From contig NC_087385.1 of assembly GCF_963675165.1 (NCBI RefSeq), forward strand, positions 2,232,501 through 2,296,500: 64,000 nt of DNA, in the 5' to 3' direction. A model generated the notes under the pieces. The model worked only from the letters and a program-made list of their open reading frames with translations. It did not search any database and was not told where the DNA came from. This DNA is from Halichondria panicea. Taxonomy: Eukaryota; Porifera; Demospongiae; Suberitida; Halichondriidae. Within the stretch, counting starts at the first letter, position 1. Every line of letters begins with the position of its first letter. Positions 3,416-44,954 of this stretch are shown piece by piece. The position numbers and the translations under genes are program-made.

Positions 3416-6400
3416 TTAGGCTGGAGGCAGTCCTTTGAGATAATAGACCCATGAGATTCCACCGGACTTTCCTCGTCCCTCCGGCTTGGCCGATTGCTGG
3501 CTAGTCACCGTAAGTTTTCCAGTTCTGGCCACATTTGAGTCGGCCTGCTTGGCATCGTACGTAATCATTATATTGTACGTCTTCCTGGCTTTGAGGATGT
3601 CTCCAGCTTTCACACTAAAGGCAGGGTTGTCCACGCTGAAAACAAACTGTGTGCTCTGTGTGAATATGTTCCTGAAGGCAATGCTGATGTTACAGCCTGG
3701 TTTTATATTGAAGGGGCCCTGTGGTTTGGGGGCGAGGCAGTGCCCGTGCAATGGAATAGAGTAGTCACCTCCGCTGCTAGAGGAAATGGTTAGGTTAGCA
3801 GGGGTGTCACCAAGGTGGGAGGGCTCAAAGTTTACATCGACGCTAGCTTCAGTACCACTGCTTCCAGCCGAGGCCACTGTGATGCTTCTCTCAACATGGA
3901 AGTCACTGTTGTCTACCTGTAGAATAGAGGCAGACACGCATGTTGACACGTTAAACTTTTGAACCGTGGTATTGTAGTGCTTAGGTGGTACGTGATGTAT
4001 CATACGTTTAGGAGGCTGTAATAATTTTTTATTGTACAAAATCACATCATTGTACAGTGGAACCTCTCTATAATTATAATGGCCCCCTTGAGCAAGGACT
4101 ATAAAACTGCGTGACAAATTAATAGGCACCCATGCAAGTCCAAAATACAAAAACAAGCCATATATGGCTAACTCTGTTCCCCAGGTAATTAATGTAAGAT
4201 TATAATAATAGTTGCAAAGAAACTGGTTACTGTAGTACCGTATAGCGGGTAATTTTCGTGGGGTAAAATATTCGTTATTTTCGTGGGCAGGCTGACCTCC
4301 ACAAAATTTTATCGTAGGCATGGCTTATCTGAACGTAGGAATGCCGTGCAGCCACGAGACTAAACGAAATTTTTACTCACGAAAACTACCGTTTCTCGAG
4401 TTGAATGAATTTTTTACCTCACAAAACTTACCCGCTATACGGTATGTACATGGTATGTATACAGATCGACTCACCTTGCAAATATACTCAGTTCTTCCCC
4501 TGGCATAGCTCACAAACCTCACGGCCTGCTGTTGACTAACCCCTAGACTGGTAGTGAAATGGATAGGCCTCTCAGGAGGGGGACAGGTGGACCGTAGGTG
4601 GAGCTCGTACTGATAGACGCCCAAGTCTGAGTTGCTCAGTGTTAGCTTACCAGTAAACTCACCAACTTTGAGTGGGAGGTACTCAAACATACACTTGCCC
4701 TGTGTCAGTGCGTAATACAGGTTAATTATAATTTTTATCATACAGTAAAAGGTGATTGAATACTTCAAACAGGTACATGCACATGTATACATAATTATGC
4801 ATACTTAAGCACACCATTATATATACAAAATGCCTCTTTTACATATAAACATACGTAATAAATACTGTATGCTGGAAAATTTGGTGGGTATTATAATTAT
4901 TTGGCGAATGAGCCATTTGAACTGACTCAAATTTTTAAATTTGGCGTCTCAAGCGTGGCTGTTACAACAATGACATTGCGTCCACAAGAAAACTTTGATT
5001 TGCAATCTTCGGTAAAATTCGCCAAATCGCCAAATTAAAAACACCCGTCAAATTTCAAGTTATATTACGGTAGAACAAATTACTACATGTAACTGTAAAG
5101 TAGAGTGCATACATGTATGTACGTACGTAATTATCTATACACGTATGTAGCTACATATATATACTCCAATACCTCACTCTGAGCTCCTACTAGGAAGTTG
5201 GTTGGCATACTAATGTCAGAGATATTGCAGTTGGTGGTTAGTGTGACTGGAGTGGGTAGGGGGTTGGTGATGGTGAACACATGGGACGCACTCTTGCGTA
5301 CGGGAGTGCTCAGTTCAATTGTACCCATGATGCCAGGTGGAGTGGACTTGAAGCTGACGTGATAATAAAGGTACTCTCCGCTCAGCTCATTTCTAAATGT
5401 CACCTAAAAACAACACACATTGTACATTTTGATAGAAGGCAGAATTTAATATCACAATCTTTAAAGGAGCCTAGTTTATAAAGTACCAAAGACAGCATAA
5501 GCGTACACACTGTACAGTACAGTACTACGTAGCTACAATACTTTACTATAATACATGTAGTTAGCCCACCTTGGCCAATATGGAGCACTCTTTGAATGAG
5601 TAGAAGTGCAGCTTGTAGTCCCTCTTCCCTAGTGCAGGCACATCAATGTAGTCTAGACCGTGTAGACTCACAGAACGATCCAGTTTCTCGGGCCTCACAA
5701 TGTGTACATCAACTCTAAACCTTTGAGGCCGGCGCAGCCAATTCTCAACCGTCAGTAACTCAGTATGTGCAGTCTTACACGGTATCTCTTGTGTAAGAGA
5801 TCCCACAACTTTAGGAGGCTCGGCGGTGCCTTGCAGATTGTACAACACCCCGGTACCGTCTGGTTGTGGAAAAAAGATAGAGCCATAATGTTTCTGCGAG
5901 TCTGTGGTCATGGTTAGAGGGTGGTAGGTTAGTTCATAGTGTCGGGACTGGTTGCTGCCAACGCTGAGTGTTTCAGGGCCACTCCACTGCTCTCCTTCTA
6001 TGAGCGGACGTAGGAGCCAGTGAGAGTTGGTCTTGTTGGGGATGGTGAGATTACGAGTCTCCTTATTGCGCACATTGGTAGTGAATGGGAGCACCTACAG
6101 TTATGCAAAACATAATATAGGTACAGCACAGCTAAGTTAACACATGAAGTACATATGTAAGGTATACAGATCCTACAGCCACTGCAGACACATCCACTAG
6201 GCCGACTAGGGTGTATCAACAGATCATGTAGAGTCTAATAAGTTTCTATATTGTATATCTGTTGTGTATTCATGGACTCTTGGTTGTATGTATCGCCTCA
6301 GGCTATGCATTTTAGGGCGCACTCGGTTATCTATAGATCTTAGATTGTCATTGTAAACAATCATGTAGCCCGGCCTCCACTCGTTATATTATTTTGCACA

Positions 6401-9400: not shown

Positions 9401-11536
9401 TAGTGGGGTGAGGTAGCTAACTATTGGAGCTTCAGGCTTGACAGCTTTTTGGAGAAGAATATTTTCACCATAATCGATCACAGCAACAAAACACACAGCT
9501 CTAGATTTAGCATCATGGCGCACTCCAGTGGCCACACACTTCACGTCTAAAGCTATGTAACGTTGATCAGATTGAGCAGCCATTATACTAGTTTGATACT
9601 ATCCACTGAGTGCATGCATGCTACAACTTAAATACGCACTACTTTGGTTTTGGTTCTTGGAACCACTTTTTCTCAGACCTACATGTACACTATATTCACG
9701 AGATACCAATAAAGCTTGAATCTCGTTATGTACGAATTCGAATCAAGGCACATGTACTATCTACACTCTTTGATGCCTCAACGTGACTTAACATTCAGAT
9801 ATTCATACTTTCCTTTGTACTTGCATGCAATGACGGAGCACATTATGTGAGCTCCATACAAATACCTTCAAAGTGTACAGTTAGTGGTTACCTACATGCA
9901 TTTAGGCTCCATAGACGTGGCATATATATACATGATAATTATTGTGTAGGCATTGGTCAACCAGCAAACAAAGGGACGGAGGCCTTCAAACTCAGAGTCT
10001 GTGCTACATAGGCAAGTTACTACACAATACCCAGGGTGAGCCCCCCTCCCCCAAAGCAGACCAAAACCATCAAGGTTTAGACATGATTTTATAGTACATC
10101 ACTGAACAGTACCAGTAACATGTACTATCATGTACGCACTGACCTCTTTGATAGGGACCTTCTCAATGCAGACCCCAGTGAGTGTGAGGTGTAGGGGTTT
10201 AGCCCGGCCCTCAATGTGACACGGGATCTTGTCATAGCGAATATCGTGACTCAACTTGCTAGGTCTGAATATCAGGTCAAAAGTTATCTGTTTTGGGAAA
10301 TGGCATCGATAAGTAATATTAGTTGTGTGCTAAAAAGAGAACACACTGGTTTGTATACAAATCACAAACAATATTCTGTATAATATTATGTTCTACTCGA
10401 TAGAATCTGCCAAAAATGATCGACAAATCAAGGGCACATTAAGAAATTGCATCCTGTCCTAAAACGATTTACCTGCATTCCTGGTGAGATGTATCCATCC
10501 AAAGGGGTGAGTTCAAAGTCAGGCCCAAACCTGTTCTCCCACGAGAATCTTGCCCCTATGTCTCCAGAGTTGATCATGAGGATTCTCCGAGAGCTCTGAC
10601 TATCTTGGACCACCGGACCAAACGGTATGTAGCTAGTGTCGAGGGTTATCTCTAGCCCAATGCACGAGCCGGACACAACAAACAGTGGCTGAGAGATCCC
10701 TAGACACTCCAATGTTACCTGGGGGAATGAACGGGATATGTTAGCTACTGTAGTCCATTGTCATAATGCTAATAATAAATTATTAGCATGTATGTCAGTG
10801 AAATAAATATTCAAAGTCAATATGAACTGGCAGCACATGTGTGTGTACGTACATGCGTACATGTACAACGCATTTTCACCAACAAAGTACAAGAATAATT
10901 GAGTTGCCACAAATATCGTGGCAAACGTTGCACGAGTCTCCACACGGGGTTTGACCAGTCTACTGTTCGCCGTGCAACAGTGACGGCTTGCGAGTCTAGT
11001 ACATGTACGTGTATTACTCATAAAATTCCAGGCATGGTACATTGTAAGAGAACATACGTACCTCTTCAGAGAATTGTGGTACTCTGGTCGTGGGGTTGAA
11101 TGCAATGCTGACGGTGCTTTGTCCTCCATTACCCTCGACGCTGATCTCCTCAGTGGGACTCACACACAGCACACCATCCTTAAGCAATGCAGGAGTGCTG
11201 GAACTAGGCAGCAGAGACAATCGAAACAAGAGTGGTATGGGACTATGGTTGGCCAGTTTCAATTCTTTCTTGACCTTTTCGCCGATACGTAAAGCTCCAA
11301 ACTTGATTTCTTTATGTGCAGGGTCGGCTAGCTCTATCTTCATCTGAGCACCGTCGCCTCTGATAGAGACTGATTTTCTGGAGAGGCCGTTTATTTCGAA
11401 TACTACAGACTCTGAGTAAGAGATGGTATCTCGAGGTCTGAACTCAAAGATGGCCTGTGCCTCTTCTTTGGGTGCTAGAATACAGGACATGAACTGCACT
11501 GAGAGGTGAGGCTGGTCCTTGTACAGACAGTGAACA
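3416..11536 (-). CDS. HYDIN: HYDIN exons 44-50: C-terminal ASH/MSP array
   Basis: Exons: 11536-11062, 10718-10473, 10329-10144, 6094-5570, 5403-5173, 4699-4475 and 3916-3416 (TAA stop). Conserved family sequence is dense: VFEINGLSRKSVSIRGDGA, IPFGPVVQDSQSSRRILMIN, LFFPQPDGTGVLYNLQGTAE, LRRPQRFRV, YYHVSFKSTPPGIMGTIE and GPFNIKPG. Intron 46 (6095-10143) is over 4 kb, far longer than its neighbours, and hosts two separate same-strand genes. Intron 43 (11537-13218) carries a GC-rich minisatellite and inverted-repeat elements. Confidence 0.93.
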
Positions 11537-14500
11537 CTGCATGGGATACATACAGCAGTTTTAAGCACCTTTGCAACACACACACACAAATAGGTAAACC
11601 ACAATGTAAACCCACAATGTAAACATGGACTACATGCAGGACTTACTTGAGCGGTTTCTTTACTAATTTGCAGTATCAAATCAAAATTGGCCAATGTACT
11701 AACACAACAACTATAGATCTAGCTATACAAGGTTGCAGTATAAGGCCTACTCCACAGACGTGATATGGAGAATGGCCACTGTACCAGAGGTGGGTACTTG
11801 GTCTATCTCATATCACACAGAAAAAATAGCTAGCAATTTGAAATGTGACCATAAGTTATAGTTATAACACGGGCACAAGGGGTGTATGGAATATATTGCA
11901 CTGAAGCACGAGGGCGTAAGCCCCGAGGGCTGAGTGCAATATATTCCATGCAGCCCGAGTGCACGTGTAATAACTAGTTTATATCCCGAGGGCATAGCAA
12001 CATAACACTGTCTTAGTAACACAATATAAACTGCACAAAAAGACGACAAAGACAACTCTAGACACAGCTCCATCTCTTCTCTCTCCTAGACGCCAGTATA
12101 TGCAGCGTATAAGATTGGCATGACCGACAAATGGCTTGACACAAAATTGTTGGAGTTCCAACGACGCTGAAACCACTGCAAAACAGCCCCACCCCACTTC
12201 TGGTGCTGCAAAACAGCCCCACCCCGCTACTGCTGCAAAGAAACAGCCCCACCCCATTTACTGCTGCGAAGAAACAGCCCCACCCCACTGTACTACTCAT
12301 CAGACTGATGATCAGTGTAACTGCTGCTCAAACAGCCCCCTCCACTATCCTCGGCATCACAACCAAGCCAAAGAAGCTCGCCTCTACACTGCTGCAAAAC
12401 AGCTCAAGCCCCCTGCAAAAAGAGCCGCTTCTAGTGCTATGGTGAAGCCAGAATTGACCGTGCATCAAGAAGTGGAGGACTAGGTCTAGGAACACAGAAT
12501 CTTCACAAAATGAGCCTGGGACGATTTTAAAACCTGCATGGTTGCAAAGAAGAAACTCCAGCAGTGCTGAACATTCCTGCATGGCTGGACTTACTTTGAT
12601 ACTTGTTATTTCTCGTGATACAATATTTAATTTAATTATGCCAGAGGGGCGTTTTGTGGTTAGTGCAATATGACTTTGCGGTCAGTGCAATATGACTTTC
12701 AGCAGTGCATTATGCTGCATATTGCACTTGGCAACAACGTAGCAACGGGATATAATTATTGACAGCAGTGATAGCAGTGGTGTAGGAAGAGAGTTATCAC
12801 TTAGAGAGCATGGATAGTTTGGAAGGGGAGCTGATATACGCATGTGCACACATATTGGGGTTTTGGGGTAGTCCCCTAAAAAATTGTGTATATGCTCTGG
12901 GATTGATTTGTGTATAAAATATGCGTACAATTAAAAGCTTGATTCAATTGAGCTTGCATTGGGCAAAAAGCAAGCATGCAGTGTTAGGGGCCTGGTTCCT
13001 ACTTTTAGTACTGTAGTACACCACTGGACAGTACTGCAGATGGTCTCCCATGCACCAAATTTAAGTAACCACAATTTAAATTACTACAATAGTACATTGT
13101 GGTTTCATGCTTGTGTGTTCATATGTTGCAAAGGTGCTTAAAACTGCTGTACATGTACATGTACCTTGCTAGTACACTATTGGATATACGCCCAAGCAAA
13201 TGTGTTATATCTAAGCACCTAATGTCCTTTTTGTCGTTATTGATGATGTTAAGAGTCTTGCGTGTTGCGGGCATATCTGATCGATGGAGGAAGTGAGGCC
13301 CAAAGTCATGCTCCTCAAAAGAGAACTCCACCTGAGGCTCAACACCCATACCACGCAGAGATATTGGGAGAGTGGGCCCATTCACAATCTGTGGAGAGTC
13401 ACACAGCATACACGTACATGTGGCAAGAAATTATGACAATGTATTTTAATGGTTTCAAAGCGCAACGATTTTCCTTGAAAGTGAGTGTAGGTACGTATAG
13501 TGATACAGCTGTGAGTGTCACACAATAAACGAAGCCAACCAAACTAACTCACCTGTAGTTGAATCTCACATCCCTTGAGGACCATTTTTGAGGGTGGAGA
13601 AAAAGTGACCTCGAATTTGGCCCTATCTTGAGGCACCACAGTTCCCTCAATTGGAGACAAACACACCAAATCACCACCAGCCTTTGTTTTGCATTTGCTG
13701 GACAACACCCACTTGTACTCCATATTGTACTCTCCATTATTGAACACTGAGATCTGGCCCAGGGCTCGCTCATTGACTGGTACAGAGCCAAAATTGATAA
13801 CTCTTGTTTCTGATTTCCCCACAGGTAGAGATATTTCAGTGCCACCAGGAGAAGTGTAGGAGAGGGCAGTGTTGATGGCATAGCCCTTAGCCTTTACGTT
13901 AAGTACCAGAGGGTCCGGTTTATGCTTAATTTTGCAGTTGAGGCTGAAGTTGTAGTCTTGTTCGTGTCGAGCAGTGAATGAAACAGTGACTGGAATCCTG
14001 GATATATTAATATGCACAGTAAATAAAATGTATAAAGTGCAACATTTTTGCTGTTTTCGAGGATTAGCAATCCTATGAAAATTGTTCCACGTACATAGTT
14101 AACGGCGTACGTAATGTCATTGACACACATTTAACCGTTTTTAGAGGAAATTCAACAAAAATTAAGTGCCTCGAAATTTTACACTATAACGGTAGTCCAT
14201 ATACATTATGTTAGCTCACTATGACATGTCTGTTAAGTATTGTACATTGAGGCCCATACACAAACATGTACGTACAAACGTACGTGTACATGCACACACA
14301 TACTTTGTGTTTGGTTGAATTGTTCCAATCATTGGCTCCACAACCAGCTGCCCTGAGTGCCCGTCACAGTGACAGCTCTTCTCATCAAAGGAAAACTTGT
14401 ACGGAGTTGGCTCATTGCTCACCAGATACACAGTATCCTTCATCTTTGAGCCTATAATGAGGTGGGTAGCATGTACACCTTCACGCAATAGAGAATGAAT

Positions 14501-20500: not shown

Positions 20501-23500
20501 ACGCACAACACAATACCTCACTCTCTCCGGACTTCAAAGTCATGTTGGGAGGGTCCAGTAGGAAAGTGTTGGCATTTTGGTCCTTCATAAAGTAGAACTC
20601 CGCATCAACTGTACTCAGGCTGATGTTCTTAATTTGCATAACCTCCATGTTCTCAGGATATCTACAGTCTTTGTATCTGCAATGATAAGTATTGCTGCTT
20701 TGTGTACTGCGGCCTAAATGTGCTTAACAATAATTATGAACTGTCATGTGCATCTAAATACACATGTTCAGCTGTAGATTAGGCTCTGTCGATAGATTAT
20801 ACACACTGCAGTTTATAACACTGTACACAATTATACGTACCGATCTCGGGTCTTGCCGCAGTGCAGTGGCCCAAAGTAGTAGGTATTTTCACTCAACACA
20901 AACTTCTTATGCACGATCTCCTCCCGGGTCTTTGTTCTTTTCCGAGAAGGAAACACACTCCTAATTAAGGTATGGCAAAAAAGGTACACACTTCATAAAA
21001 GCTAAAACAGCCAATTTGTAGGAGGGAAGTATTACCTAAATTGTATGCTCATCCAATACAAGAGTGGCCCTAAAATCCATTTAAGAATACAGTCATGTAT
21101 AATATAGCTCACGCAAGGCATCACTTACAGAGGCATTTTTACAATTTACGGACCTTGGCTCTTGGCAAATTGTAGGCATCTCGCAGTGACCACGGCAGAA
21201 CAGTTGAGTCCTCCTTCTGGTACCAGTGATCTCAAAGTTGAGTGTCTGATCAAACTGTCCGATATCTGCCTGAGATTGGAAGAGCAGCTTGAGCTTTGTC
21301 TCTCCACTAGGGGGAACCACCCAGCGAAACCTTACTAGTCTGTGAGGTACATGAAACTTCAGTAATACAGTATCAGATCAATAATACCAAGGAATGTACA
21401 TGTATTCATGCATACGTGTCGTATACCGTATAGCGGGTATTATTTCGAGGGTATAAATTTTAGCGGATGGACCTCTACAAAGGATTTCGCGGATTTTATT
21501 TTCGTGGTCTGAGTTCCAGCCTTTTGACGCATGCGCACATCAACATGCAGCTGTACCTCTACACCGTTAGCCTCGAATCCAGGCCTAGCCTGTATAAAAT
21601 AATAGAATCGGTGAGGCACTATGTCCTCCATCTCTAGCAGAACGTTTGCTGTGCAGGCCATGGTCAGGGGATACAGTAGACGTAGAGCAAGCTAGCTGGC
21701 TATATATACCGGCGTCCTTGTCTCTAGATTCCCTTTTCTTTCCTCTTATTGTAGATAGGTGTGGTCAATAATACTGAACACGCCTACTATTCAATAAGAT
21801 ATAAATTTTCGAGGTACAGGCTCAATCCGCGAAAACCGTGAACATTTATACCCTCGAAATATACCCGCTATACGGTACGTACATATATAATTATTATGTA
21901 CATAATGCTTCCATGATACCTGACTGTACAAACATTGGATTCTAGGGAAAAGTTCACTTCAGCATGTTCTATAATTTACTGGTTTACTAATACAGTAAGG
22001 ACTCACTTGACTGGCCCCCCGGTTGGTTTTGTCTCAGGTGTCTCAGTCTTGGCCACTGGAGGTGTCTCTTCCCTTGCGGAGACAAACTGAGAAGGAGAGG
22101 GAGAGGGAGATGCAATCTTCACAGTGCTCTTCTTACGACTCGTCTTCTGCGGTGACTTTTTGTGACCAGTTGAATCACTGTTCTCGGCGGACCGAACGGA
22201 GGCAGTGCGTTTGGAAACTCTGGATGAGTGGTCTCTCTCACTTGGTTCACTGGGTGGCTCTTCAATAGGCTCAGGTGGGGACTTGGGCGCCTCTTCTTTG
22301 GGGGCATTGCTATGAGGGGACAATGTATGATTATAATTATAAGACGAGGTATCACCTCAGTAATACAGTTGTATGAACGCACATACATGTATGTACACAT
22401 ACAAACCATGTGACGTTTACTACGTAGCAAGCATGAACTGTTTTACTACAATGCGACATACAGGAAACAGAATGCAACAAATAGCTACGTATACATGTAC
22501 ACGTACATATGTACAGTACTGTAAGCTCTAAAAATTAATTTAAAAGTGCAAGTAAACAAGAGTAATAAAATTAAAACTTACGGGTCATCAGGCGAAGATG
22601 CAATGAAGCAGAACCTTTCTTGTGGGACATGGCGAATGTTCTTCCTCTTGAGTGGCAAAGGATACACTTGAAAGTCAACAGGCCCAGGAATAGGCACTCC
22701 ATCCGTACTAAGTCCCAAACCATCAAGAATTGACTCGGTAGAAGGCAGACCCAGATCAAACAATCGTCTTGTTACAGCCTCCATCTCTTGGTTTGCTTGA
22801 ATTTCTAACAGTGACACCCCCAGTCCTTCTCTGCTCTCTTCCGGTTCTGGTATTTCAGGACAAATTTCGATATGCTCCTCTTTCAGCTTGCCACCTTTGA
22901 CCTTTCTTGATGGGGTGATTTTGGTTGTTGGTTCTTCAATTTCTAAAGGTTTTTTAGGGCGTAATACGCCTTTTTGTCGATCCCAGTCTTCTATTACACT
23001 CTTAATGCTGTCAATAAATGTGGTGTAATGGTTGTATTTCTTTTGTAAAAGAGTGCAACATTCAGTCGGTTGGTCGTCTTCGAGTATTGACCGAGCACCA
23101 CCTTTCTTGGGTACTTTCCTTTTTGGTGTGCCGCCTCCTCCTGGAGACTCGAGCACAGATTGAATGCTAACTCCTGAAGCGGTCATATTACCTGTTCCAC
23201 CAAGATTCAATTGTCCATGAGTAGGGTGGTGAGATGAACCAGGTCGTGATTGGCCTGGTGAAGTGCCTGATTGATGCATTAGTACTGTGACTGCTGGAGG
23301 TTTCGCTACATTACTGGCACGGTGCTGTTTGTTTGGGTCTTTACGTCCCTTCTTTTTCATTTTCTCCTCTTCAAGCCTTCTCATTTCTTCCTCACGAAGC
23401 TCCATTTCTCTTCGTTTTTGCTCCTCTTTTTCCTGTTTACGTTTCTCCCGTTGTTCTTTTTTAATTCTAAACCGTATTGTGTCGATTTCTCTCTGTTCCT

Positions 23501-26500
23501 CAAGGCTCTTTGCTTCATACTCATCTTCGTCAAGTGCTAACAATTTTTCAATCCTTTCCTTCTCGATTTTTTCTATCTGCAGCAGTTCTTTTTGCAAATT
23601 TTCTTCTTGTAGTTGCTGGATCTCTTCAATATTGTCCAGCCTTTTCTGAATATCAACAAAATCCATTTCGAGGTTCACAAAATAGATGTGTGCACGATTA
23701 CTAAATGCTCGCAGTACAATACATGTAGATAATTGAATACTTGCTGCAAAATGTGATTCAATCCCATCAAAAACAACTCCTCTATAGCAGTCAGACTGCT
23801 GCAATCGTTCAGCCAATATTTCATAAGCAAGGTTTTCAGGTAGAGCTATAGGCATAAGTTGACCTTCAGGGACTGCAAAATCGCTATTTTGTAGCACATC
23901 AACATTGAAGTGAGATGGTGGTACAGGAAGAGGTAGTACTTCGATTGTAGTTTCTTTGTCTTTCTCTTTCTCTTTGGCATTGAATTGTTTCTTTGAGAAA
24001 ACTGATAGGCCGGAAGGTGCATCATTTACATCTTCTTTGATAGCAACACTATCTATGAGGTATTTACGTGCTTTTCGGCCAAACTCAGTTCTAGCGCTTG
24101 ATATTGCCTCAATAATTACCTCATCCATGACCAATACAGTGGCTCCATACGCTTCAGCTATACGCTTGGCTTGAGTGGTTCGTCCTGATGAAGGTGGGCC
24201 ATGCACAATAATAGCGGCTCCTTTTCTTTTTTCAGCTTCTGCCGCTTCTGGTGACAAATCGATTCCCAAGTAGTGTGCAATTGCCTGTTTCACGGGAGAC
24301 AACATTTCAGGTAGGCTAGTTGCAGTCACTGCAGTTAGCTGTGTAAGTGCTGAGAGAGATTCGATAACGGGTAAGTTCATAGTTGATGCCAGCGCACAAG
24401 TGCTTTGTTGAACACTTTTTGGATCATCGAGTAAATCATGGGTAGTTTGAGACTGGCCTTGAACAGAAACGGTGCTTTCAAGATTGGCATCACTGGGTAA
24501 ATTAGTCTCTGTGTCTGTTCGCTGATCATGAGGGTCAGGCTTTTGACCTTTGTAGGCTTTTAAGATTTCGTTGGGTAGGGACTCCCCCAGAGTGGGGGGT
24601 GGGAGCATCAGTCGCTGCTGACTGTCGTACTCCTTAATGTCACGGAGAATCTACAGTGAGAGACAATTCAGATAAAAATTGCATGGTATAAATAGAAGTG
24701 AACGTTTATAAGTAGATGTTACTGGCAATTGTAACATGCCTGTGCCGTGTACTTAATTACAATGTGTAGCTACAATGTATGTACGTATGTTACACATACT
24801 ATGTACAGTACCTCTTCTTCCTCCAGGTACTGCTTATCAAACTCAAGAGAATAAAACTCGACGGGGTAGGGCATTGGGTTGCTGACAGTGATCTCAGTTT
24901 CTGAGCCTGGTGAGAATGGCAGTACTGGCTCATACTTTACGAGAGTGGGACTGAATACAAGTTGTGGTTCGCTGCCTCTCCCCTCCACGTGTAGACACAG
25001 ATCACTGTCTGGATTCTGGTGAACAGAGAATGGAATCTCATCCACATAGTGAATCTAGGGAAGAGGATGAAAACAGTACAGTTACTGAATTCAAAAATAT
25101 GATAAAAAAGGAACACTTTGTATAATTCGTCACATAACCAAAAAACAACACCATGTGAACACTCCTCAGCTAGAGAATGCAACTATAAGTGTACTCATGT
25201 AGTTACATGTATAATTATAGGAAGAATTACTGATCGAGACAAGTTACATGTACATGTACTTACACGCAGACACATAATTATACACATACACTTATTGTAT
25301 ACCTCTTCACTCGGCATGAAGATGATCTTGATGTCGGTTGTTTTTCCCGGTAGCAGCACTCCAGAGGAGGGACTGACCTCAAAGAAGTTTGGAGGAGGTT
25401 TCTGCTTCATCTTCTTTCGAAGATGGAGCGGAACATGGCGAGGAATCTTCTTAGGAGGCTTGGCAGTCACAGCAGTCCACATACAACTGGAGCAGAGAGA
25501 TATACATGTACATTGCATGATAAATTTTACTTTGGTGGTGTCTAAAGATCTTGTAGATTGTGTTACCATGAATCAAATAGGACGTTAGGCCTCAAATATA
25601 CTGTACATGTACGATAATGCTCTTGCTAAACTACATGTACATTGTATACGTGCAGTTTTTCAACCCTACCACCATTTGCTATCATGTGCATACACACACA
25701 CAGATACATGTACATGCAGCAACTATTCACCTGACTGTGACAGGGTTGGTGAGCCTGATGGTGACGAGTCTGCACTGACCACAGACAACCGTCCCAAAGT
25801 CAATATAGCTCTCAGAGAACTGCATGCTGGGCCGAGTGACTTGTGCAGTGAACATGACAGAGTAGGATGGACCACCAACAAGCTGAAAGACAAAACCTTT
25901 GAAACCAAATAATTATGTACAGTTCTACACATGTATATTGTACGTACATACGCACGTACACCATGTAATGTATGTTTATAAAGAAACCATAGAGCTCTAC
26001 AATACTGTAATAGGGAATTGATTAGGAGGATAAAAACTGGTACGTACATTTACATATACGTATGTGCAGATGACATGCACGAGCACAAAAACTCACATTG
26101 AAAGGGACCTCAATGAGCCTCTTTCCATTAGAGCATTTAATAGCCGCTGGGTCAAAGGTCACAGTGAAGTCCAGGCTCTCATAGGGGGGCAATGCCTTGA
26201 CCTTTTCTCCTAGGTCCACTGAGAACCCACTGTGCTGTAGTAGCTTGTGAGGGGTGGTGAAGGAGACAGGGATGTGACCAACGTTGGTTAGGTGGAAGGT
26301 TCGTGAGGCAACCATACCATACACTACATAGCCAAAGTCCAGGTGGAATCTGGGTAAGCCCCTGTAGTAAAGTACATAATTATACGTATAATTATAGGCA
26401 AGAGTAGATAAGAGTACTTGATCTAGATCTACTCTTGAATGACACGTGAAACATAAAATGTAAAATGCTTACCATAACATAATTGTAATATTTTGTATTG

Positions 26501-36263: not shown

Positions 36264-39200
36264 ATGTCTGCAGCTACTGCTCCTCCATTTAATAAATCTG
36301 AATCGACTCCACAGTCCATACAGAGGGTAAGCTATATAGATGCTGTTTTGTGTAAGATGCCTCTACCTGTACCTATGCTATAAAGCTAACTGTACACAAT
36401 CTACCAGCTTTAAACAATGCATGTGTATTTTTTCTAGCTATTGGATGAAAACTCGCAGTTGATAAAGGTGAGCTATTCTCGAATACGGTCGCATCTTTTT
36501 CATCCAGCACATGTATAATTATGTGTTCATTATGCACATCAAAATAAATTATTAACTCGTATGCAGGCACTTGTCGAGAATATGACCAATAAAGGGAAAA
36601 GTATGGAGTGCATACAGTGAGTGCTTTTAGTCACCATAGCGACAAACTATTGTTTTTGTTTTCACTGACTAGGTACCAACAGACGCTACATCGAAACCTA
36701 GTGTTTCTTGCTGGACTGGCTGACCCAAATCTAAACATTCAGGCTCTTATTCCAGTAAGTTGAGAAATTGGCGCCACTTGTTAAGAATTATACAGCAGGG
36801 CTTCATCTAGTGGGGAGGGGCAGGGGTGAACCTTTGCCCTCAAAATGCTCAGCTTCCCCCCCAAAATGTTGTAGAATAATGATATCATCACATTATAGTA
36901 CTGTCTCTATGATGTGCAATATGTAACTAGATCTACTGTGATGCACTAGCATGTATTATGGGGTGTGGGCAACAAATGTGGGAGTGGTCAAACGTTTTGC
37001 TGCATGCTTACGCGCGCCCCAAAACCCCCCCCCCCCCCAATTTTTAATCCTGTACATAGATAGCTAGATACGATTATGGATTATGGATAGACAAATCATG
37101 TGTATGCTTGCTTGACAGACTTCTATCAGTTGAGCCTCAATTATCCGAACACCTGGTGTCGCCACCTCATCCAGATGGCTGAAATATCGGATACCAGAAT
37201 GACTCTAAATGAGCCACGCCCATCAATGCTTCAAGTAGCCTCTGCATGCAAAATCAGCAAATGATTTCCGGAGCTCTTACAAATCTACTATATTAATATA
37301 GTCTTGGATTATAATCAGAACAAGGTAACAAGCTATACTGTTAGGCTAATCTGAAGCGTTAGGCTGCTTCTGCTAATCAGAATGCAAAAAGCTTTCAACC
37401 ACGTGGACACTTAATGCGCATGTGCGAGTAGGTGTTTGATCATTAAATGTGGCCGAATCTTTCGAATTCGGATGATCGGAGTTCAGATAATCGAGGCTCA
37501 ATTGTACTGTGAAATACCACTTATTGTGCTTCATTCAATTAGTCCTCCACCTAAATGGAATCCTTACCATGTGTTCTATTATGGGCTACCGTAGAAACTG
37601 GATTATTAGCGCTTACTTGACTATAAGCGTATCTTCATTTAAGCGCATGCTTAACTGCAGGTTTTTTGTACTCTAATTGAAGGCTTTTCCAGAAGGATAT
37701 TAGTGAAAATTTTGAATTGATTCAGCTAATTATTTTTGTTTATCTAGGAGCTAGCTAGCTTGTACAGTGCATGGTAGCTATATAGCTGGTGATATCCATC
37801 TGGAAAGACTGGGCATGCTGCTACCTTGTCTAAATGTTGTGAAATGAACTGTAAAATGGACTGTAATATAATAGTATGATATAGATCCAGTTAGGGCTGC
37901 CTGCTTGCTCACTTTCTAGCTAGGTTACGAGTCAGCTCTCATCACAGAGACATCCGGTTTATAGGCACATTCTCGAATATAAGCGTATAGAGGTCTGCTA
38001 TTTACCCCATGAGCGCATGCGCTAATAATCCAGTTTCTACGGTATCTCGCCTGTGCATTTACAGTGACATGTTTGGTTTGGTTTAAAGTACATGTACGAT
38101 CTATAATCCTATAATAAAGCCAGTTTTTTCTTTTAATGTTACCTGCTTGTTGCCTCTTTTCACAGAGTCCTGGTAGCAACCCGATGGTCCCTAGCTCCAC
38201 TTCCCCCCTTCCCCCCCCATCCAGTGGTCCCCCCTATTCCACTAATGCAGGCTCCTCCCCTGGTTCAACTCTGGCCGGGGCCGTCAGCACAGGCACTGGT
38301 CAACAGACAGTCAGACAGCCACAGGCTACAATGAACCCTCCGTCAACTTCTCCTGAGACAATCTGGTCTGCTAATTCACAAACTGCCCGAGCTACCCCAC
38401 CATCTACAATGTCTGCAGGTACATCATTACTCCCAATTGCATTTCTTATGCCTCGGTGCACATGCACAAGCGAGGTATACGGTAGTGTGTTTGTGTGTCT
38501 CTGTGTGTGTAGACACACAAACACACTACCGTATACCTCGCTTGTGTGTGTAGACTGCTACAGCTGCTCAAGGATCAATGAAGTGCAAGTAAGAGTTTCT
38601 ATAGGCTTCTAGTCATGTTTTCTTGGATTTGCAAAATAATGCTTCGTTCTCGAGTTATGCCTAGTTTTGCTTACTTGGAATGCCATTGCAGCCTTTCAGA
38701 AAATTGCGTAGCAAAACTTGTTCACCGAGTGTTGCTACTCTACGTAGTAGTTAGCTCTGCACTAGAACGCCAGCTATTGGTAGCTGCAAGCGTGAGAAGA
38801 GACCTGCAAGGCTGCTGGTGCACCCATTAATTTAGACTTGAACTTTTGGTTTTAACACAATCATGGTTGATCATTACCCACTCTTTTGAGTTTGCATGCA
38901 GCAAAAGTAATGTGTGTATAAAAACTATTAGTAGCTTTATGTTATGTAGCTTTGGCACCTCTACCGAGGCATCAGCACCCGCGGTGCTTTCATTTTGTTA
39001 TCGTTTTGCATATTCTTAATTGACCGATTGCATCTTTAGGTCAATTTCCACCTGGTGGTGGTATGCGCAGTTTTGACGGAGGAATGTGGAGTAACCAAGG
39101 GCAACAGCAAGGGATGTATGGAATGCAGCAGAGCAGCGGTTTTGGGTCGATGATGTCACCAGATGATCGTCAGAGACAACAGCAAATGCTTCGTATGAGA

Positions 39201-39407
39201 CAAGAGCAAATGATCCACGCACAGCAGATGCGTAGAATGCAAATGCAGCAAAGTGGTACTCCCAGTTCAGTTCCAGCTGGCAGTGGAATGTACCCCGGAA
39301 TGGGGCCACCTTCAGGAATGCTACCTCCAGGTGGAATGCCTCCTGGTTATCCCCAGACGAGTATGATGCAGATGTCAATGCCTCCTGGACCAATGAACAT
39401 GCATTGA
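36264..39407 (+). CDS. SS18: SS18 (SSXT), BAF chromatin-remodelling complex subunit
   Basis: Six exons in frame: 36264-36326, 36438-36467, 36567-36616, 36673-36754, 38166-38418 and 39040-39407 (TGA), giving 281 aa. Exons 1-4 encode the SSXT/SNH domain (QRLLDENSQLIKALVENMTN, QYQQTLHRNLVFLAGLADPN), the part that anchors the protein to BRG1/BRM in nuclear SWI/SNF-type complexes. Exons 5-6 encode a Pro/Ser/Gly/Thr-rich stretch and a Met/Gln-rich tail (RQQQMLRMRQEQM, MRRMQMQQSG). The tail is shorter than in vertebrates and lacks the long QPGY repeats. ATG 36264 fits the family N-terminus; an in-frame upstream ATG at 36198 would add 22 residues. Introns 4 and 5 contain several MITEs. Confidence 0.93.
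37021..37038 (+). repeat. Poly-C run in SS18 intron 4
   Basis: A cytosine homopolymer of about 14 bases follows AAAA. It has no coding role and its exact length is uncertain. Confidence 0.6.
37130..37501. mobile_element. MITE with pogo/Tigger-like ends (TTGAGCCTCRATTATC)
   Basis: 372 bp in SS18 intron 4. The left end TTGAGCCTCAATTATCCGAAC is mirrored by GTTCAGATAATCGAGGCTCAA at the right. The ATTATCCGAA motif resembles termini of pogo/Tigger-type Tc1-mariner elements (family knowledge). There is no transposase frame, so the element is non-autonomous. A partial relative is at about 59336-59420. Confidence 0.8.
37587..38044. mobile_element. MITE (ends TACCGTAGAAACTGGATTATTAGC)
   Basis: 458 bp in SS18 intron 4. 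The ends TACCGTAGAAACTGGATTAT and ATAATCCAGTTTCTACGGTA are exact inverted copies. Mirrored ACTATAAGCGTATCTTCATTTAAGCGC / GAATATAAGCGTATAGAGG blocks lie inside. No protein is encoded. Confidence 0.88.
38447..38993. mobile_element. MITE (ends ATGCCTCGGTG), copy 1, in SS18 intron 5
   Basis: Begins TATGCCTCGGTGCACATGC and finishes near TACCGAGGCATCAGCACC, so ATGCCTCGGT forms inverted termini. It contains a local palindrome around a CACACA core (GGTATACGGTAGTGTGTTTG / CAAACACACTACCGTATACC at about 38477-38538). The sequence is repeated in inverted orientation at 39747-40107. Confidence 0.8.
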
Positions 39408-39746
39408 ACTTGATTATTGTGTATTGCGTACAATCATGTTTTATGAGTATTAGTGTGTACCATTAGGTAGTAACATCTTCTATTCAATGTTCTCTGTATA
39501 CGTATACCGAGTGACTGTATGATGGATAGAGGCGCAGCTTGATCTAATACTTGTTTAGGTAATGATCTTGACCATTCCCGTTATTGTGCCTTAGGCTACA
39601 CGCCGTAGCCGCACGAGGGATATGACTGTGTGTGCATATAATATATAGCTATAGATACTATTACATGTAGTATATACAACCATAGATGATACAGTACTGT
39701 TTCACATCCACGTCAGTACTGTATCATCTACATGTATGCTATAATA
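39408..39746 (+). other. SS18 3' flank / likely 3' UTR with a perfect 17-bp stem
   Basis: Non-coding sequence after the SS18 stop codon. TAGATGATACAGTACTG at 39683-39699 is exactly mirrored by CAGTACTGTATCATCTA at 39714-39730 with a 14-nt loop. No canonical AATAAA was seen before the inverted MITE copy begins, so the transcript end is not located. Confidence 0.45.
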
Positions 39747-40107
39747 ATGAAAGCACCAGAGGTGCTGATGCCTCGGTGGAGATGCCAAAGCTACATGTAC
39801 ATAACATAAAGCTACCACTACTAATAGCTTAATTCACATGATGAACATTTTTGCATTACACACACAAATATTGCCGTTAAAAGTTAAAGTTCAACTCTGA
39901 AAAGGCTGCAATGGCATTCCAAGTAGGCATAACTTGAGAACGAAGCATTATTTTGCAAATCCACGAATTGAAATCTAAGAAAACATGACTAGAAGCCTAT
40001 AGAAACTCTTACTTGCACTTCATTGATCCTTGAGCAGCTGTAGCAGTCTACACACACAGACACACACACTACTGTATACCTCGCTTGCGCATGCACACCG
40101 AGGCATA
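39747..40107. mobile_element. MITE (ends ATGCCTCGGTG), copy 2, inverted
   Basis: An inverted partial copy of the element at 38447-38993. AATGAAAGCACC...GATGCCTCGGT at one end and GCATGCACACCGAGGCATAA at the other correspond block by block to copy 1, including the ATGACTAGAAGCCTATAGAAACTC region and the TACACACACAGACACACACAC core. It is shorter because of deletions. Confidence 0.8.
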
Positions 40108-40186
40108 ACTATAGGGGATGCTGGAAGCATTGTGTGAGGCGAGCCTAGCCTTAGCGAAGACAAAGAAGTTGTAGTGAGTTCCTTCG

Positions 40187-40505
40187 TTTCCTAAAGATCT
40201 CTCTAACTGCAATTCTCTTTTCCTCTTCAATTCGAACCTTTTGGCGACAGACGAGCTTCTGTCTCATAGCTCCTACATGTACTTGTTGTTAAATTTCCCT
40301 TAGCCTTGCCAGCAGATGGTGTCTAGACTCGCAAGCCGTCACTGTTGCAGGCGAACCTGCAACAGTGACGGCTTGCGAGTCTAGATGGTGTCTTTGATAT
40401 GGCGTAGGGAATGCCATTCCCTGAGTTGTTGAGCTGTATCAGTTTCATCTTACTGTTTCGTAAAGGTCTCTCTCTCTAACTGTACTCTCTTCCATTTACT
40501 CTACA
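40187..40505. repeat. Tandemly duplicated non-coding segment, copy A and start of copy B
   Basis: Copy A (about 40187-40454) begins GTTTCCTAAAGATCTCTCTAACTG and runs through GCCAGCAGATGGTGT and GTTGTTGAGCTGTATCAG. Copy B restarts at about 40455 (GTTTCGTAAAGGTCTCTC), is interrupted after about 40505 by the retrotransposon, and resumes at about 43041-43190 with CAGACGAGCTGAGTTTCTGTCTC through GAGCTAGCTGTATCAGCAG. No gene is recognised in it. Confidence 0.7.
40325..40382. mobile_element. 58-bp perfect hairpin insertion with 11-bp target-site duplication
   Basis: Two exactly complementary 27-nt arms (AGACTCGCAAGCCGTCACTG... and its reverse complement) surround a CGAA loop. The unit is flanked on both sides by AGATGGTGTCT (40314-40324 and 40383-40393). 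The duplicated host copy at 43117-43127 has the uninterrupted site AGATGGTGTGT, so the hairpin is an insertion rather than original sequence. One arm also occurs at 10973-10997. Confidence 0.75.
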
Positions 40506-42771
40506 AAGGCTCACCTTCTGTGTGAGCTGTTAGAGGAGTTCAACCTTCAACAACTTGTGACAGAGCCCACAAGAAATACCAGTATTTTGGACCTGCTCCT
40601 TACAAATAGGGAGGACATTATCCAAGAAAATGAAGTTGTAGATGAAATACCTGGATCAGATCATGAATCAGTACAGTTCTCCATCAACCTTACCAATTAA
40701 GAAAAAGATCACCAGACACAGGAGGCTGATGTACAATTTCAAAAGAGCTGATTTTAAAGCTTTTAGGGAGCTCCATGAGCAAAATACCATGGAACTGCTG
40801 CTTCCTCACAGAATCAATTGAGGACTGTTGGATACACTTTAAGGATGTTCTTCTATTGGCGGCAGATCAGTGTATTCCCAAAGTCACCCTGAAACCGAAA
40901 AAGAGGATGTCTTGGCTCTCGGATGAAACACTTCTACAAATAAAGAAAAAGAGAAGAACCTATAAGCTGGCCAAACGCACTCAAAAATCGCATCACTTTA
41001 GTAAGTATAGGGCTATCTCTGATAAAGTCCGCAACATGACCAGAAGAGACCACCTTGATCATTTGCAGGTTATAACATCCAACCTAAGCACTGATCAAAG
41101 ACCCTTCTGGCGATGGATGAAAAACATCAGAGGACACAGTTATCAGATTCCTGAAATCCATCATGGAGGTGCTACCCTCACCAATCCCTTTCAGAAGGCG
41201 GAGACATTTTGTAGATTCTTTGTGTCAAAATTAGTAAAAGAGGATACAAGTTCCCTGAAGAATATCAAGCAAGACCTGGACAAAACAACCAGTGAAATGA
41301 AAACATCAGACATTGTCATACTTGAAAGATGAGGTTTACAAGCTGTTGAGCAAGATAGATACATCGAAGGCTAGTGGACCTGATGAACTTCCTGGCAGGC
41401 TTCTGAAGGAAGGAGCTCAGTGGATTGCTAGCCCCCTGTCCAAACTATTCTCACTATCTCTAGCACAGGGAAAGCTACCGCAAGATTGGACATCAGCTAA
41501 TATCACTCCTATATTCAAAAAGGGAAACAAGCACTCTGTATCAAACTATAGACCAGTCAGTCTAACGTGCATCACAGTTAAACTTCTTGAACGTATCATA
41601 TTCAACCATGTGACTGCATTTCTAACAACAAACAAAAAACTAAGCCCATTTCAGCATGGATTTCGTAGTGACCACTCGTGTCAGACGCAACTGCTGGAAA
41701 CAGTTCATCAATGGGCAAAAACACTCGATAATAAGGGCAGCACACACGTCGTATACCTAGATTTTTCAAAAGCATTTGACACTGTACCGCATGGACATCT
41801 ACTACTCAAACTGGACCACATTGGTATAAGGGGTGACCTGCTTGAATGGATCAGAGGTTTCCTGCTTAATCGCAAGCAGCGGGTCCTATGTGACAGGGTC
41901 ACATCTGATTGGGACAATGTTCCTTCAGGGGTGCCACAGGGCTCTATACTTGGCCCCCTATTGTTCATCATCTACGTCAATGACATTGGAAATACCTTCT
42001 CCTCTCAAGCTAGACTATATGCAGATGACTGTACAATTTTTAGGAATGTTTCCTCACAACAAGATCAGATATCGCTACAAAGAGACTTGAACCAGCTATT
42101 TGAGTGGACTCAGAGCTATTTGAGTGGACTCAGAAGTGGCATTTGGCACTGAACATTACTAAATGCAAAGCAATGATTATCTCCAACAAAAGGATAAATA
42201 TAACACCATTGAAAGCATATTCCATCAACAGCAACCAACTTGATTGGGTGGAGACGTATAAATACCTGGGTGTGATCATTCACAAGAAACTATCCTGGAG
42301 TAACCACATCCTTCAAGGGTCCTCCAAAGCCATGAAAGTGTTAAACCTTCTACGTAGAACCATGCGCATGGCACCAGCAAATCCTCAAAAGAATTGGCAT
42401 ACATTGCTTTGGTATGACCTCACTTGGAGTACTGCTCACCAGTCTGGAATCCCCACCAAAAGAAATACATCCAAGATTTAGAAAAGGTACAGAAAAGAGC
42501 TGCAAGGTGGGTGGGTGGTGTTCGCTGGGATAGCTCGACTAAAAGCTGGACAGAATCATACAACACAACATGCCTCAAACTTGGATGGCTATCACTCGTA
42601 AACAGAAGGACGTACTTGGACTGTTATCAGACATTTAAAATAATCAATGGTTTGGACTGCATTAATTTTAAAGACTACTTCAAACAGAACAAGGGTAACC
42701 TCAGATCCAACTCTCACAATCTTTTTTTTTTAGTCAAGTATCAATGCCTTCAGATACTCCTACTTTGTTAA
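40506..42771 (+). pseudogene. Reverse transcriptase ORF remnant of the LINE element
   Basis: Frame-shifted remnant. The endonuclease tail lies at 40506-40700, the linker at about 40700-41330, and the RT palm with fingers at 41313-42113 shows LPQDWTSANITPIFKKG, YRPVSLTC, FQHGFRSDHSC, YLDFSKAFDTVPH, GVPQGSILGPLLF and the catalytic LYADDCTIF (motif with two Asp). Thumb-like and C-terminal parts follow in other frames at 42104-42481 and 42424-42771. Frame breaks are seen near 40700, 40775, 41320, 42114 and 42450. The break at 42114 is caused by an exact 20-bp tandem duplication (42094-42113 and 42114-42133). It cannot encode an intact protein. Confidence 0.88.
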
Positions 42772-43046
42772 TGCCACCCATGTATGGAATGAGTTACCAA
42801 TTTCAGTTGTACAATCACAAGGACCTAGCTTTAAACAAAATTTATTAAGTCATTTGTCATTAGGTTCTTTTAATTACAGTACTTAATTAAAACTTCTCTT
42901 AATTATTTCCGTTTGTTTTGTTCGTTGTGTGTGTGTATATGTTATGGGGAGCACCTAGATAGGAATACCTTTTGTGTAACCCTTTCCATGTATGTATACG
43001 TATACATGTATGGATAAAATTATTTCAATTCAATTCAATTCAATTC
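40506..43046 (+). mobile_element. Decayed non-LTR retrotransposon (Jockey/CR1-like group)
   Basis: A 5'-truncated LINE-type element inserted in copy B of the duplicated host segment. It starts within the endonuclease region (NTSILDLLLTNRE, GSDHESVQFS), continues through the reverse transcriptase and a C-terminal region, and ends in short ATTCA-type repeats (TTCAATTCAATTCAATTC at 43024-43046). Terminal microsatellites of this type are usual for such elements. No long terminal repeats are present. The clade assignment is tentative. Confidence 0.85.
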
Positions 43047-43190
43047 CTCTTCAGACGAGCTGAGTTTCTGTCTCATTAGCTCCTTTTGTTGTCAAACTTC
43101 CCTAAGTCTTGCCAGCAGATGGTGTGTTTGATATCCCAACGCCATTGCCTCACTACCTTAATATAATAGTTGTTGAGCTAGCTGTATCAG

Positions 43191-43896: not shown

Positions 43897-43968
43897 CGCG
43901 CAGGTGTATAAATTGGTTTTGTGCCGAAGACAAATGAAGAGAAGGTATTGAAAGAAACAAGCATACTA

Positions 43969-44800
43969 GAGTAAACAATAGAACTTCGCACGACACATAT
44001 TTTCGAACGATTTAGCACCACGGTAAGCAAAACAAACAGCGATATGCAGAATCTGACCCTACACAAGCCGACTTACATGCCTTAGGAACAAGCTGGGTTG
44101 AATAGCAACGTCGTAGCTCTTGCAATGATGACGTAATAATCCAGAAAACAAAAGTGTGCGATAGTTGGAATTTCGAAAAAAGTAATGTATCCCCGAACCG
44201 AGGTACTTGCCGCTTTAATTAGCTAATATCGAGCTTCCCATCAGCTTTAGTATGTCCTATATAGTATGTAGTGAACATAAGCAACACTAAAATTACTTCA
44301 CTGCTACTCAAAACAAACAATAAACTTTTGAACAGTAAGTGCTGAATCAGCACTTTTAACACCCACGTGGATGGTTGTGTACAGCAGATTTTTATACAAC
44401 CATCCACGTGGGTGTTAAAAGTGCTGATTCAGCACTTACTGTTCGAAAGTTTATTGTGGAGTAGCAGTGAAGTAATTTTAGTGTTGCTTATGTTCACTAC
44501 ATACTATATAGGACATACTAAAGCTGATGGGAAGCTCGATATTAGCTAATTAAAGCGGCAAGTACCTCGGTTCGGGGATACATTACTTTTTTCGAAATTC
44601 CAACTATCGCACACTTTTGTTTTCTGGATTATTACGTCATCATTGCAAGAGCTACGACGTTGCTATTCAACCCAGCTGTTCCTAAGGCATGTAAGTCGGC
44701 TTGTGTAGGGTCAGATTCTGCATATCGCTGTTTGTTTTTGCTTACCGTGGTGCTAAATCGTTCGAAAATACGTGTCGTGCGAAGTTCCATTGTTTACTCT
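43969..44800. repeat. Near-perfect 0.8-kb palindrome (two arms of about 410 bp)
   Basis: The left arm 43969-44382 and right arm 44391-44800 are reverse complements with few differences, separated by about 8 bp. Differences include AACAAACAATAAAC in the left arm against a shorter GTTTATTG in the right. Small opposed open frames in the two arms are copies of one sequence and are not considered genes. It may be a foldback transposon or a recent inverted duplication. Confidence 0.88.
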
Positions 44801-44954
44801 ATTTAATATGTAAGTAATACTAGTACCAATAGCATGCCTATCGGCATGGTTAAAATGAAACAATACTCTGTGTAGAACTCTGATGGCTGAGCATGAGTAC
44901 GAGTTGAACTGACTATAGGCCTAATTATTTTATCAATTGTGATATTTACAGAAG

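Follow-up and report, generated by a model that had tools for sequence, protein, structure and literature searches.

The perfect 58-bp hairpin at positions 40325-40382 of the window (the whole 64,000-nt stretch of DNA analysed here) was most likely left by the repair of a double-strand break, in a one-off templated foldback insertion, rather than by a transposon. The insertion event as such is well supported by an 11-bp target duplication and by an unoccupied paralogous site. The first-pass annotation had held that the hairpin moved on its own. The duplication and the empty paralogue uphold the insertion, but self-mobility is not supported, because a second arm, a hairpin and a flanking duplication are all absent from the other copy in the window. 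If the repair reading is true, a hairpin with a target duplication and an empty site is insufficient ground for naming a transposon, and the locus is a clean natural case that unites a distant template, snap-back and a staggered-end duplication.

Structure of the hairpin and its insertion site

As had been noted at first pass, the two 27-nt arms are exactly complementary around a CGAA loop, and the pairing carries on for 3 nt on each side through TCT/AGA, giving a 64-bp palindrome (40322-40385) with 30/30 pairs (Table 1). The flanking direct repeats noted earlier were likewise borne out. The exact 11-mer AGATGGTGTCT stands on both sides of the hairpin, and on both strands of the 64-kb window it was found at these two positions only. 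The RNA fold of 40314-40393 reaches -68.6 kcal/mol, compared with a mean of -24.7 kcal/mol in 200 shuffles (z -15.0). When the window was subjected to eight dinucleotide shuffles, the longest arm (with loops of up to 10 nt) measured 9-12 nt. Since shuffled arms never exceeded 12 nt, a palindrome with 27-nt arms is not a product of chance. The hairpin is not the longest of the window; a 36-nt arm is found at 38465-38546.

Table 1. Features of the filled site, the putative donor locus and the empty site (window coordinates)
Feature	Position	Strand	Basis or remark
Left direct repeat AGATGGTGTCT (11 bp, target duplication)	40314-40324	+	Last 3 nt (TCT) pair with the right copy
Left arm AGACTCGCAAGCCGTCACTGTTGCAGG	40325-40351	+	27 nt
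Loop CGAA	40352-40355	+	Also present in the 10965-10999 copy
Right arm	40356-40382	+	Exact reverse complement of the left arm
Right direct repeat AGATGGTGTCT (11 bp)	40383-40393	+	First 3 nt (AGA) are the presumed joining microhomology
Putative donor CTAGACTCGCAAGCCGTCACTGTTGCA(C)GGCGAAC	10965-10999	-	34/35 columns identical to 40323-40356, one gap
Putative HYDIN intron containing the donor sequence	10719-11061	-	Splice motifs and reading frames
Empty site AGATGGTGTGT of the diverged host paralogue	43117-43127	+	One mismatch to AGATGGTGTCT

A nearby empty duplicate of the host sequence had also been reported. The insert is indeed absent there, but the duplicate is not an exact copy: the empty site reads AGATGGTGTGTTTGATAT and the filled site AGATGGTGTCT...AGATGGTGTCTTTGATAT, with one base different. 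On its left side (43062-43124) the duplicate is 80% identical over 70 aligned columns (BLASTN), which points to an old paralogue rather than an allele. On its right side, the BLASTN match extends over 18 nt only (43117-43134), with patchier likeness to about 43200 (MAFFT). The comparison of filled and empty sites uses the BLASTN pieces; MAFFT gave the insert as no single clean gap. The empty paralogue argues for insertion over loss, because the filled site holds the 11-mer twice. With 30/30 pairs intact, the insertion is probably recent relative to the 20% divergence of the host duplicate.

A single-armed copy in a putative HYDIN intron

About 29 kb from the hairpin, the arm recurs on the minus strand. 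The first-pass annotation had located 25 nt of it at 10973-10997; this second place exists, and the exact match is in fact 27 nt long (10973-10999). The wider match of 35 columns spans CTAG, the arm, the loop (GGCGAAC) and one base past the loop. On the far side it ends after CT, where the next donor base is A and position 40322 is T. Exact 26-mers common to sites more than 5 kb apart were seen in the window in this case only (3 blocks, 6/63,975 window positions), and a search with the arm at up to 3 mismatches returned three matches in the window, namely the two hairpin arms and 10974-10999.

At 10965-10999 the loop bases are kept and the other arm is missing. Neither hairpin nor RNA structure beyond that of shuffles was found at 10920-11005 (z 0.72 on one strand and 1.25 on the other), and a hairpin or structured RNA was rejected as the identity of this copy for being no better than shuffles. 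A tRNA-derived element was rejected as well; ARAGORN found zero tRNA in the window. Five boundaries were tried for the copy, and exact direct repeats abutting it were at most 3 nt long with any of them.

The copy lies within what appears to be an intron of HYDIN. The predicted donor site is AG/GTACGT and the acceptor ...CCCCCAG ends at 10719, with an alternative candidate AG ending at 10769. Positions 10965-10999 fall inside the putative intron under either acceptor, and the matching strand is its sense strand. The adjoining HYDIN exon, in ORF 11014-11694, codes for HYDIN-type Ig domains (Pfam, E 7.7e-08), and the Hydin adenylate-kinase domain is coded on the same strand at 22578-24608 (Pfam, E 1.5e-26); the Pfam scan took in nine of the 19 window ORFs of at least 150 aa. 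Together with the LINE described below, HYDIN indicates a eukaryotic host that has cilia or flagella, probably an animal. The 10965-10999 copy looks like the source of the hairpin arm, although both loci could instead descend from a third source.

Palindromes are prone to fold-back artefacts during library making, and the hairpin might on that ground be ascribed to sequencing, cloning or assembly. However, exact 11-bp duplications around a 35-column match to a locus 29 kb away are not what a fold-back would produce, and the flanks run on normally on both sides of the insert. We regard an artefact as highly improbable.

A repair model and its main rival

Directly observed are the insert, its duplication, the empty paralogue and the donor match over 35 columns; the direction of copying, the enzyme and the order of steps are what we infer in the following model. 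Two nicks 11 bp apart would create a break with complementary 3' overhangs, the left one being AGATGGTGTCT. This left overhang, which ends in ...CT, would then prime on the HYDIN intron sequence CTAGACTCGC..., and 32 nt (40325-40356) would be copied through GGCGAAC, with one donor C lost. The nascent 3' end may subsequently snap back, C40356 pairing with G40351 over the CGAA loop, so that the polymerase would copy its own strand through the arm and 3 nt into the overhang, with AGA as the new end. This AGA would anneal to TCT at the 3' end of the opposite overhang, followed by fill-in and ligation. The expected outcome is a perfect hairpin flanked by an 11-bp duplication, the latter derived from the filled-in 11-nt overhangs. 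Polymerase-theta type end joining fits best as the pathway; the data are also compatible with a single strand that folded back at the donor and was captured whole.

What a templated foldback should leave behind is seen here: a donor match (34/35 columns) and an inverted copy (30/30 pairs) across a 4-nt gap. The match to the donor takes in arm and loop and ends one base past the loop, where snap-back would be expected to start. The donor is single-armed and without duplication, which also speaks for repair. Against repair stand the distance of the donor (29 kb), the absence of a deletion, and the one donor nucleotide that is missing from both arms. In addition, just one donor C pairs with G before the loop, and the fold uses 1-2 nt; the second C that pairs with GG must be either the first copied base or an added base.

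A tiny palindromic transposon is a possible but doubtful alternative. A MITE of 58-64 bp that retains just its pair of terminal inverted repeats, with transposase acting in trans, would have generated an 11-bp or 7-bp duplication, and 10965-10999 would be a truncated relic. The perfect terminal repeats, the clean target duplication, the unoccupied paralogous site and the presence of the arm at a second place are all consistent with such an element. A 62-bp element CTAG...CTAG with the 7-bp duplication ATGGTGT is a self-consistent reading, under which the AG before and the CT after the 7-mer (239/63,989) as well as the T-A pair 40322/40385 would be chance. However, the sole other copy in 64 kb kept the loop bases and lacks a second arm, a hairpin and a duplication, and a terminal partner at up to 3 mismatches is absent from the window. 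The first-pass annotation expected other copies of a mobile family to carry the flanking repeat, and within the window this expectation fails, the other copy being without duplication. Further copies with both ends and a duplication of their own were not found in the 64-kb window.

Neither viral_contigs nor genome_contigs contained the exact arm 20-mer (0 matches each), which says little because these collections are viral, bacterial and archaeal. Queries with the LINE reverse transcriptase or the HYDIN ORF recovered no other same-host contigs from viral_contigs. We consider it unlikely that the hairpin represents a nuclear family of 58-64 bp palindromic elements, nearly all terminal repeat, with an unusual 11-bp (or 7-bp) duplication and half-elements in introns. 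If the family reading is nevertheless true, the hairpin is a very small nuclear mobile element.

The junctions bear on the choice between repair and transposition. In the repair model, CT (2 nt, at donor entry) would be the priming microhomology and AGA/TCT (3 nt) the joining microhomology, though the letters fit other readings too. Such microhomologies are expected under repair, whereas under a 58-bp transposon with an 11-bp duplication they would be chance. The 63,989 11-mers of the window include 1,180 that allow the palindrome to reach 3 nt into the duplication, 4,078 that have CT in common with the donor, and 66 that combine CT with the 3-nt extension. The junctions favour repair modestly only, because the junction reading was chosen after the sequence had been seen, and because the 58-bp and 62-bp transposon readings cost about equal.

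Comparison with known systems

In the available parts of the reports cited here, each step of the repair model has a separate published precedent, and none of these precedents unites all steps in one event. At yeast breaks, foldback insertions from distant loci consist of two inverted fragments of one donor, with a junction microhomology of median 2 bp (range 0-4), and distant inversions have 2-11 nt (median 6) at the fold (PMC11724301). As in our model, two copies of a remote donor, inverted relative to each other and separated by a small gap, are placed at a break (PMC11724301). Distant inverted insertions in yeast were reported mainly in rad27 and RPA-related mutants, and a flanking duplication is not described in the available text (PMC11724301), in contrast to the event studied here, which has a 1-2 nt fold and an 11-bp duplication and is found in an assembled genome.

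Purified Pol theta extends stem-loops from two 3'-terminal base pairs and works better with two, an activity that may account for inverted repeats in repair products (PMC11292364). Breaks with 3' overhangs give tandem duplications; those made by theta span nearly the whole overhang and show microhomology more often (PMC8355091), and 3'-overhang tandem duplications occasionally carry inserts templated in cis (PMC5730883). The likeness to the hairpin thus comprises snap-back from about two terminal pairs, an inverted repeat, joining by microhomology and duplication at 3' overhangs (PMC11292364, PMC5730883, PMC8355091). The snap-back inserts described for Pol theta derive in cis from the break end itself, whereas the source proposed here is 29 kb away.

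Other published observations count against the repair reading. Small tandem duplications in wild-type mouse cells arise mainly via CST-dependent NHEJ (PMC8355091). At transposon breaks in worms, templated inserts matched sequence near the break, and theta-mediated joining left small deletions of about 7-13 bp and no duplication, as far as the available text reports (PMC4490562).

Among mobile elements, MITEs resemble the hairpin in having terminal inverted repeats and a target duplication. They differ in that a family, a transposase and a second hairpin copy were not found in the window. The mobile palindromic GC clusters of yeast mitochondrial DNA are also short palindromes with a putative target duplication (PMC4478555). 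According to the accessible text of that report the clusters are mitochondrial and multi-copy, whereas the hairpin has nuclear genes as neighbours and occurs once in the window. A literature search on palindromic MITEs in sponges and other animals gave no matching nuclear hairpin family among the matches listed, as far as their available text goes.

The neighbouring LINE

A non-LTR retrotransposon, apparently 5'-truncated and with an AATTC-repeat tail, occupies about 40490-43046 (ends judged by eye), and its reverse transcriptase domain (PF00078) lies in ORF 41313-42152. The diverged host duplicates flank this LINE on both sides. The right duplicate starts at the LINE tail, so that the two duplicates may represent an old target duplication of unusual length.

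We also considered the hairpin as a by-product of LINE activity, in which the LINE endonuclease would make staggered nicks and a short RNA from the HYDIN intron, its 3' end folded back, would be copied, yielding the 11-bp duplication. A duplication of 11 bp suits LINE insertions, a LINE with a reverse transcriptase domain (E 4.5e-31) adjoins the site, and the strand that matches is the sense strand of the putative HYDIN intron. Human templated insertion polymorphisms include a LINE-type class 1 with duplications of at least 5 bp, and in these polymorphisms, too, a distant piece, introns included, was copied in the germ line or early embryo (PMC5110952). Unlike what is seen here, the main text of that report does not contain the word 'inverted', and the insert in the window has no poly(A). 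Neither poly(A) nor a LINE-like tail was found between the duplications, and the fold would require self-priming from the RNA 3' end. We rate this origin as distinctly unlikely, and the templated foldback insertion remains the preferred reading.

RNA family and bacterial hairpin searches

A REP/RAYT-type palindrome was rejected on account of the host: the window has HYDIN exons, putative introns and a LINE. RAYT was not among the Pfam results for the nine ORFs scanned (9/19 of at least 150 aa). The Rfam scan of the window at gathering thresholds gave 0 matches; a relaxed scan of 10900-11030 gave a single match, osmY, with E 5.3 and far under the gathering score.

A gapped hairpin pattern was absent from viral_contigs (0 matches) and matched 24 loci (25 places) in genome_contigs. 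Of these, 22 loci with 23 places belong to Verrucomicrobia and have the sequence GACTCGCAAGCTCG..., while the other two are from Schlesneria and Gemmataceae, which we take to be Planctomycetes. The bacterial hairpins were rejected as unrelated: what they have in common with the arm is the 11-nt ends of the query pattern, and a further match to CGTC (one base skipped, many loci) was taken as chance. As an observation in its own right, the hairpins of the Verrucomicrobia MAGs typically have the form (CG)GACTCGCAAGCTCGTCCCTCCA...TGGAGGGACGAGCTTGCGAGTC(CG) with variable loops, and they are dispersed and REP-like; 15 of the 22 loci are in the single MAG JAAZZB01.

Other palindromes and repeats in the window

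Large interrupted inverted repeats, with arms of 88, 59, 51, 47 and 34 nt, extend over 38446-40108 and enclose an apparent glutamine/methionine-rich coding end (about 39040-39407, by eye). The hairpin with 36-nt arms mentioned above lies within this region and is perfect. At 39683-39730 there is a hairpin with 17-nt arms that has TACATGTA on both sides (39662, 39729) and is possibly a small inverted-repeat element.

An 835-bp near-perfect palindrome occupies 43967-44801, with arms of 219, 66, 65 and 62 nt at 97-100% and an inner perfect 49-nt hairpin at 44330-44444. Near its ends, exact direct repeats are limited to ATACTAG, at 43963 and at 44817, and the latter copy does not abut. Finally, a diverged dispersed repeat around CCGTATAGCG...TTTTCG occurs in both orientations at 4235-4445, 17516, 21423-21892, 28759, 33465 and 48471.
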